The position numbers were made by a program, and so were the translations under genes. This document shows positions 17,023-38,651 of a stretch of 64,000 nucleotides of DNA, one piece after another. Below the pieces are notes generated by a model. The model did no database searches. It was not told where the DNA came from and worked only from the letters and a program-made list of their open reading frames with translations. Source of the stretch: Polynucleobacter ibericus (lineage in GTDB: Bacteria > Pseudomonadota > Gammaproteobacteria > Burkholderiales > Burkholderiaceae); assembly GCF_018687955.1 (NCBI RefSeq), contig NZ_CP061309.1, forward strand, positions 620,001 through 684,000, read 5' to 3'. Every line of letters begins with the position of its first letter. Within the stretch, counting starts at the first letter, position 1.

Positions 17023-17265
17023 ATGAATAACAAACAAATTCAATTACTTCAGGATCCGTTCCTCAATGCTTTGCGCAAAGAACATGTTCCTGTCTCAATC
17101 TATTTGGTAAACGGCATTAAATTGCAGGGCAACATTGAATCTTTCGATCAATATGTTGTTCTCTTGCGTAATACCGTGACCCAAATGGTTTACAAACACG
17201 CAATCTCTACGATCGTTCCAGCTCGTGCGATTGATTTCCGTTTAGAAGAAGCTAGCCCTGTATAA
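17023..17265 (+). CDS. hfq: RNA chaperone Hfq
   Basis: Hexameric Sm-like RNA chaperone that pairs small RNAs with mRNAs. The 80 residues contain Sm1 ([20 protein letters not shown] and [19 protein letters not shown]) and Sm2 ([10 protein letters not shown]) motifs. The C-terminal tail is short, as is common in this group. The ATG follows AAGGGGCAGT, a good ribosome-binding site. About 180 bases of A/T-rich DNA precede the gene and probably hold its own promoter, but no clear -35/-10 pair was identified. Confidence 0.98.
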
Positions 17266-32651: not shown

Positions 32652-32738
32652 TGGTGCCCAGGAAGGGACTCGAACCCCCACAACCTTACGATCGCCAGCA
32701 CCTGAAGCTGGTGCGTCTACCAATTTCGCCACCTGGGC
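32652..32738 (-). tRNA. tRNA-Leu (anticodon CAG)
   Basis: The minus strand forms a long-variable-arm tRNA. The acceptor stem GCCCAGG pairs with CCTGGGC, and the discriminator A and an encoded CCA lie at 32652-32655. The D-arm region is TGGCGAAATTGGTAGACGCA. The anticodon stem CCAGC/GCTGG holds the loop TTCAGGT (anticodon CAG, reading CUG). The T-arm contains GGTTCGAGTCC. The 87 nt including CCA fit tRNA-Leu. It is transcribed away from rnr. Confidence 0.96.
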
Positions 32739-37388: not shown

Positions 37389-38099
37389 ATGAATCAAGAT
37401 CAACTAAAACAAATGGTAGGTGAAGCAGCTAGAGATGAAGTGCTCAAGCTTGCTGCAGGGCAAATTTTAGGTATAGGCACGGGATCAACGGCCAATTGCT
37501 TTATTGATGCCTTGGCGCCTCATAAGGACCATTTTGCTGGGACCGTATCGAGCTCTAATGCAACAACTGAGCGTTTATTGAAGCATGGTTTTAAAGTGCT
37601 CGATCCAAATGACGTTCAAGGTTTGCCTGCCTATGTAGATGGCGCAGATGAAATCGATCCAGCCGGCCACATGATTAAAGGTGGCGGCGGGGCTCTCACC
37701 AGAGAAAAAATTATTGCCTCCATGGCAAAGCAATTTATTTGTATTTGCGATTCCTCCAAGCAAGTCCCAGTACTGGGTAACTTTGCATTGCCAGTGGAAA
37801 TCATTCCGCTTGCAAAAGGTGTTGTTACTCGTGAGTTAGAAAAGTTTGGCGGCAAAGTAACTTTGCGCTTAGCGAAGAGCACCCGCGCTGATCTCAATCA
37901 AACGCCTAGCGAGCCTTTTGTGACTGATAACGGTGGCTGGATCTTGGATATAGCGGGGCTGAAGATTGCCGACCCCCTCCAGATGGAAGCGCAAATCAAT
38001 CAAATTGCCGGTGTGATTACTGTAGGTTTATTTGCAAAAGAAAAAGCGAACATTTTGCTGGTCAGCAATGCTGCAGGCGTGGATCGTATAGCCCTCTAA
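37389..38099 (+). CDS. rpiA: Ribose-5-phosphate isomerase A
   Basis: Interconverts ribose-5-phosphate and ribulose-5-phosphate. The 236 residues contain GIGTGSTANCFIDAL (phosphate loop), AYVDGADEIDPAGHMIKGGGGALTREK (catalytic Asp and Lys/Glu region) and a C-terminal GVITVGLFAKEKANILLV. Length is slightly above E. coli RpiA (219). It is followed by a terminator at 38130. Confidence 0.96.
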   Translation: MNQDQLKQMVGEAARDEVLKLAAGQILGIGTGSTANCFIDALAPHKDHFAGTVSSSNATTERLLKHGFKVLDPNDVQGLPAYVDGADEIDPAGHMIKGGGGALTREKIIASMAKQFICICDSSKQVPVLGNFALPVEIIPLAKGVVTRELEKFGGKVTLRLAKSTRADLNQTPSEPFVTDNGGWILDIAGLKIADPLQMEAQINQIAGVITVGLFAKEKANILLVSNAAGVDRIAL

Positions 38100-38124: not shown

Positions 38125-38284
38125 TAAAAAACCCGACGGGGTATGCCCATCGGGTTGTTTTGCCATGGTTTGCATGGCGCAGATAATCGGAAGGTAATCA
38201 GTTCCGACATCCATGAGTGCACAGATGCACTCATCTTTAGTGGCTTTCGCCAATGTGAGTGAGGCACTCAATCTGTCTCACCAC
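38125..38284 (-). ncRNA. Candidate structured small RNA of about 160 nt
   Basis: The minus strand has all parts of an independent RNA gene. A promoter (38291-38318) predicts a start near 38284. Then come the stem-loops TGAGTG/CACTCA (38270-38256), TGGC-GAAA-GCCA (38252-38241), a 9-bp ATGAGTGCA/TGCACTCAT (38234-38213), TCGGAA/TTCCGA (38207-38187) and GCCATG/CATGGC (38178-38162). It ends at a terminator (38156-38130) followed by six T. CAGAT (38275-38271) with ATCTG (38184-38180), and GGTG with CGCC outside it, could close a multibranch junction around the first four hairpins. No reading frame fits. It does not look like 6S, SRP, RNase P or tmRNA. Function unknown; the nearby hfq gene shows the cell has an RNA chaperone. 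Confidence 0.6.
38130..38160. terminator. Bidirectional terminator between rpiA and the candidate RNA
   Basis: The stem AACCCGA / TCGGGTT with an inner GGG/CCC extension is flanked by AAAAAA upstream (38126-38131) and GTTTTG downstream. On the minus strand it gives a U6 tail, the stronger direction; on the plus strand it can end the rpiA transcript. Confidence 0.85.
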
Positions 38285-38290
38285 AACTTC

Positions 38291-38318
38291 ATCCTACGCT
38301 TATCTTTGGCAGTGTCAA
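38291..38318 (-). promoter_or_regulatory. Promoter of the candidate small RNA
   Basis: On the minus strand a perfect TTGACA (38313-38318) is followed after 16 bases by TAGGAT (38291-38296), a four-of-six match to TATAAT. It lies downstream of yggX and points into the stem-loop-rich region. Confidence 0.6.
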
Positions 38319-38378: not shown

Positions 38379-38651
38379 TTACTCTGCAGGCGGTACGTAA
38401 CCTTGTGCCATATCTGCGCCACCCTCAAAGAAGTACTTTTCTACCTGTTTTAGGAGGTATTGGCGTGCGCGTGGGTCTGCCATATTGAGGCGGTTTTCAT
38501 TAATCAGCATCGTTTGGTGCTTTAACCAAGCAGCCCAAGCTTCTTTAGAAACTTGATTCCAAATCTTTTTACCTAGATCACCAGGAAGTGGGGCGAAATC
38601 CATGCCTTCGGATTCTTTATTGAGTTTGATGCATTGAACCATGCGTGCCAT
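38379..38651 (-). CDS. yggX: Fe(II)-trafficking / oxidative damage protection protein YggX
   Basis: A 90-residue cytoplasmic protein linked to iron trafficking and protection of iron-sulfur clusters. It begins [19 protein letters not shown], with the conserved Cys at position 7, and continues with [19 protein letters not shown] and [18 protein letters not shown], the YggX signature. It lies 14 bases after argA on the same strand and is probably cotranscribed. It reads toward the candidate RNA promoter; no separate terminator is clear at its end. Confidence 0.96.

Follow-up and report, generated by a model that had tools for sequence, protein, structure and literature searches.

HRC-28-1 of Polynucleobacter as a probable stand-alone small RNA gene with a conserved promoter of its own

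Bacteria of the genus Polynucleobacter are very abundant in fresh water and have small genomes, and we know of no characterised small RNA of the genus's own. In the window analysed here, the whole 64,000-nucleotide stretch of the P. ibericus genome, a row of hairpins lies on the minus strand between yggX and rpiA. Is this a structured tail of the yggX message, a terminator surrounded by neutral sequence, or a gene in its own right? A consensus-like promoter and the RNA gene together span positions 38126-38318. Reading along the minus strand, TTGACA (38318-38313) is followed by a 16-nt spacer, TAGGAT (38296-38291), a further 6 nt and the RNA itself, which begins with GTGGTGAGACAG at 38284 and ends at 38126 with the six T of a terminator. 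A preliminary description had placed the two hexamers, the spacer and the terminator in exactly this way. The features are as follows.

38379..38651, minus strand: yggX (oxidative damage protection protein), conserved upstream neighbour, context only
38313..38318, minus strand: -35 element TTGACA; TTGAC in 64/64 homologous copies examined
38291..38296, minus strand: -10 element TAGGAT; TAGNAT-type hexamer at a fixed distance in 64/64 copies, spacer 16 or 17 nt
38126..38284, minus strand: probable small RNA gene (HRC-28-1 RNA), 159 nt, predicted +1 at 38284; covariance model score 160.4 bits, covariation in 50 sequences
38255..38284, minus strand: hairpin 1, 10 modelled pairs starting at the predicted 5' end, tip with invariant CAG...GUG; two-sided changes in 7/10 pairs, 97.7% of cells paired (50-sequence alignment)
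38241..38252, minus strand: hairpin 2, UGGC-GAAA-GCCA; GNRA loop (GAAA/GCAA/GUAA) in most copies
38213..38234, minus strand: hairpin 3, 9 bp with a UCUR-type loop (UCUA/UCUG and variants); two-sided changes in 8/9 pairs
38181..38212, minus strand: hairpin 4, two stacked helices with apical GGAAC...CUUCC; two-sided changes in 7/8 pairs
38162..38178, minus strand: hairpin 5, 6 bp; two-sided changes in 5/6 pairs
38126..38156, minus strand: intrinsic terminator, stem 38156-38130 followed by the U run; a remnant persists where the RNA body is deleted
37389..38099, plus strand: rpiA, conserved convergent neighbour, context only

The minimum free energy fold of the RNA consisted of five hairpins and the terminator, including TGGC-GAAA-GCCA and the 9-bp stem, and so reproduced the architecture described earlier from the sequence alone. 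Its energy was -67.6 kcal/mol compared with -42.6 ± 4.3 kcal/mol for shuffled sequences (z = -5.85), and 0/200 shuffles were as low. The promoter-like pattern by itself was unremarkable (3 found versus 2.1 expected); the evidence for a promoter therefore comes from its conservation across copies and not from its mere presence.

Homologues were detected in relatives, those with full matches sitting between yggX and rpiA. A MAFFT alignment of 47 distinct rpiA-locus copies supported 45 consensus pairs, 21 of them with two-sided changes. When copies from other loci were included (50 sequences), standard pairs occupied 97.8% of cells and 34/45 pairs showed two-sided changes, which are the covarying stems that the preliminary description had named as a check; this larger alignment was fitted to the covariance model and thereby favours structure, and the independent MAFFT alignment has the same compensations. 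The covariation score of the 50 sequences was 0.430; shuffles scored 0.206 (0/500 as high), and slid controls, in which 32-42% of cells were paired, scored no more than 0.079. Pairing and covariation in a smaller divergent set agreed with these values. Across homologues G-U pairs outnumbered A-C pairs by 192 to 19, which assigns the fold to the minus strand. Judged by these comparisons, the element is a real structured RNA.

Not every proposed pairing survived. A multibranch junction closed by CAGAT/ATCTG and GGTG/CGCC, suggested from the single sequence, is not conserved: the pairing of CAGAT with ATCTG was present in 69% of cells and never showed a two-sided change, and its invariant CA already pairs within hairpin 1. 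No reading frame was kept open across homologues, which speaks against a small protein and bears out the initial impression that no coding frame fits. Conservation was lower in unpaired columns (69%) than in paired ones (83%). Conserved positions that are also accessible lie at the tip of hairpin 1, in the loops of hairpins 2 and 3, in parts of the hairpin 4 loop and in an A-rich linker. The second base of the hairpin 2 GNRA loop varies, and the stem of this hairpin is swapped for an unrelated longer one in the G016/G091/G092 clade and deleted in G181.

No part of the element varies less than the terminator, which remains where everything else has been deleted, as would be expected if it alone were functional and the other hairpins were neutral sequence. 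We give this reading almost no credence, since a terminator can explain neither the invariant promoter nor the strong covariation seen in each of the five hairpins before it. The terminator stem also reads as a terminator in the rpiA direction, so that it is probably common to yggX and rpiA and would end both transcripts; its retention in genomes that have lost the RNA suggests that this is a separate role.

The preliminary description had put the RNA forward as a candidate novel one, which does not hold. A survey of 26 bacterial genomes (RNA Biol 2021, PMC8632094) describes a motif, HRC-28-1, with 33 examples, mostly from Polynucleobacter, located downstream of the PRK05408 oxidative damage protection gene (yggX) and opposite to rpiA, and built of six stems, the final one being an intrinsic terminator. 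The RNA in the window likewise belongs to Polynucleobacter, lies downstream of PRK05408/yggX, converges with rpiA and has five hairpins plus a terminator, that is, six stems. We take it to be HRC-28-1 on the strength of the published description (location, strand, genus and six-stem layout) rather than of the consensus figure; the motif has thus been known since 2021 and is not new. That description suggests that the motif belongs to the 3' UTR of the yggX mRNA and gives no function (PMC8632094). A search of later literature for HRC-28-1 by name returned nothing.

Rfam 15 held no matching family at the locus, either at the gathering threshold or with E up to 10; matches to sau-19, STnc310, FuFi-1 and similar families were at chance level. 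Polynucleobacter-1 (RF01718), a comparison left pending by the preliminary description, had no match in the window or at the locus even with E up to 10. The sole Rfam match in the 64-kb window was a tRNA gene (32655-32738, minus strand).

Should HRC-28-1 then be read as part of the yggX message, acting in cis on stability or termination, as proposed in 2021? In every genome that was read, the rpiA-locus copy lies downstream of yggX and on its strand, and yggX read-through would include it. Against this stands the promoter, conserved in every copy examined (64/64): TTGAC, 16 or 17 nt, then the TAGNAT-type hexamer, whose last base falls exactly 6 nt upstream of the first base of the RNA in all 64. 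The hexamer was TAGGAT in 55/64 copies and TAGCAT, TAAGAT, TAGAAT or TAGAGT in the others; the information content of the hexamers was close to 2 bits, while the majority of positions between and upstream of them were poorly informative. Eleven of the 64 promoter-bearing copies (L112-L118, L120-L122 and L137) are non-syntenic, so promoter and RNA form one unit. In a divergent copy, L138, the promoter match was weaker.

By our count, 12 Polynucleobacter genomes carry the RNA at unrelated loci that do not adjoin yggX, mostly with the promoter (G163, G166 with two copies, G011, G100, G075, G098, G160, G161, G104, G061, G159 and G175). Neighbours of these copies include a solute-binding protein and a HemN-like radical SAM protein, HD-domain and TctC proteins, AzlD and LysR, PIN and polyketide-cyclase-like proteins, and a cupin, and the orientation of the RNA relative to them differs between loci. 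Such unrelated neighbours and varying orientation argue against a cis role tied to yggX. Other genomes, conversely, retain yggX with the terminator alone or with a gap of 14-33 nt. An element of the yggX 3' UTR should always lie on the yggX transcript and lack a promoter of its own; neither is the case here, and we regard that interpretation as very improbable.

Several individual genomes deserve mention. G166 carries two diverged copies at two unrelated loci (L113:3674-3836 and L114:4152-4312). G011 has a split yggX match with an internal stop (L086:1501-1728), and its RNA is missing at the rpiA locus and present elsewhere. The most divergent copy (L138:1501-1673, 73.4 bits) comes from G175, a distant member of the genus whose nearest sampled relatives lack the RNA, possibly reflecting horizontal transfer or multiple losses.

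A covariance model search of 186 genus genomes gave matches in 128. After exclusion of three terminator-only genomes (G116, G128 and G187) and addition of two (G098 and G175) with broader models, approximately 127/186 genomes carry the RNA; weak matches within the genus to two models, R2 and R3, were terminators. In a quickly built tree of yggX + rpiA proteins from 117 genomes, one clade of 77 (SH-aLRT 98) contained every one of the 68 rpiA-locus copies, a neighbouring clade of 17 included nine carriers with the RNA elsewhere, and G175 was the sole carrier in the most distant group; support is weak for many inner branches, and gains and losses can therefore be counted only roughly. The RNA disappeared more than once inside the carrier clade: a terminator remnant is left in G116, G128 and G187, a different terminator is found in G164, only a gap of 23-25 nt remains in G120, G124, G125 and G126, and the G101 copy has a decayed appearance. 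Because it has been lost several times, the RNA is not essential.

Outside the genus, no convincing copy was found in 399 genomes of the order (a few of them from the genus itself); matches in other Burkholderiales genera reached at most 32.5 bits, were terminator-like and in several cases occurred on both strands. A pattern scan of named genomes returned 48 contigs, each of them labelled either as Polynucleobacter or as an unclassified beta-proteobacterial/Burkholderiaceae assembly. Searches of phage records and viral contigs produced no match to the RNA, and a search for a second copy in the same genome yielded only a 21-nt chance match.

Comparison of the copies places a sigma-70-type promoter a fixed 6 nt before hairpin 1, together with a conserved fold and same-promoter copies elsewhere. 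The conserved promoter and the copies at unrelated loci point to an independent small RNA gene, and covariation, rigid promoter placement and these additional copies lend strong support to the earlier proposal that a structured RNA is transcribed independently here. We therefore consider it likely, with good confidence, that HRC-28-1 is a family of stand-alone small RNA genes, in which the predicted promoter would drive an RNA of about 159 nt acting in trans and independently of its neighbours.

How such an RNA would act is a matter for more tentative wording; a regulatory role in trans is the one we favour. Hfq is encoded in the same window (17047-17232, plus strand; Pfam PF17209, 103.5 bits), as an Hfq-dependent small RNA would require. 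No ProQ/FinO protein (PF04352) was found in any of the 186 genus genomes, with a positive E. coli control, and on this ground we reject a ProQ/FinO-dependent RNA. For a small RNA gene, Hfq-assisted pairing with mRNAs would be the most likely mechanism, although we rate it at a little short of even; contact would be made by the A-rich linker and by hairpins 3 and 4 at their tips. A search for a long accessible invariant seed found none and unpaired columns are less conserved, which weakens a base-pairing mechanism. Protein sequestration by the small RNA comes second, as a possibility over which pairing is slightly preferred. An RNA-seq study of P. asymbioticus has been published (PMC6629928; data set PRJNA523328).

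The alternative that this is primarily a protein-sequestering or scaffolding RNA, like 6S or the CsrA-binding RNAs yet outside those families, draws on the better conservation of structure than of loop sequence, and on GNRA and UCUR loops that are retained while stems are exchanged, which would suit a shape-recognising partner. It has no known partner, 6S is encoded elsewhere in the genome, ProQ/FinO was not found in the genus and hairpin 2 is swapped or absent in some species; we judge it rather unlikely. More doubtful still is that a genus-restricted small RNA, whose gene moves between loci with its promoter and whose multi-hairpin shape binds a specific protein, constitutes a new functional class. 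Once HRC-28-1 is recast as a small RNA gene, its function can be tested directly, with a covariance model over about 127 species and with mutants that have lost it naturally, and the motif clearly qualifies as a candidate new family for Rfam.

Among known RNAs, Polynucleobacter-1 shares with the present one only the genus in its name, its covariance model having no match here. 6S RNA is a stand-alone RNA of similar length. However, 6S forms one long interrupted hairpin whereas the RNA described here is a row of hairpins; RF00013 did not match at the locus and 6S is a separate gene at G000:C1:1313013-1313231 (58.1 bits), in keeping with the first impression of a shape unlike 6S. Hfq-binding trans-acting small RNAs have several features in common with it (own promoter, intrinsic terminator with a U run, Hfq encoded), but the RNA here is more structured than most of them and has no long conserved open seed, and its Hfq binding is putative. 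With HRC-28-1 as published (PMC8632094), it shares the genus, the position downstream of yggX and opposite rpiA, and the six stems ending in an intrinsic terminator. The published description gives 33 examples and a 3'-UTR idea, whereas here the motif extends to about 127 genomes, with a conserved promoter of its own and copies at unrelated loci; this wide range within the genus, and the reclassification of the motif from 3'-UTR element to probable stand-alone, locus-changing small RNA gene, are what the present analysis adds.
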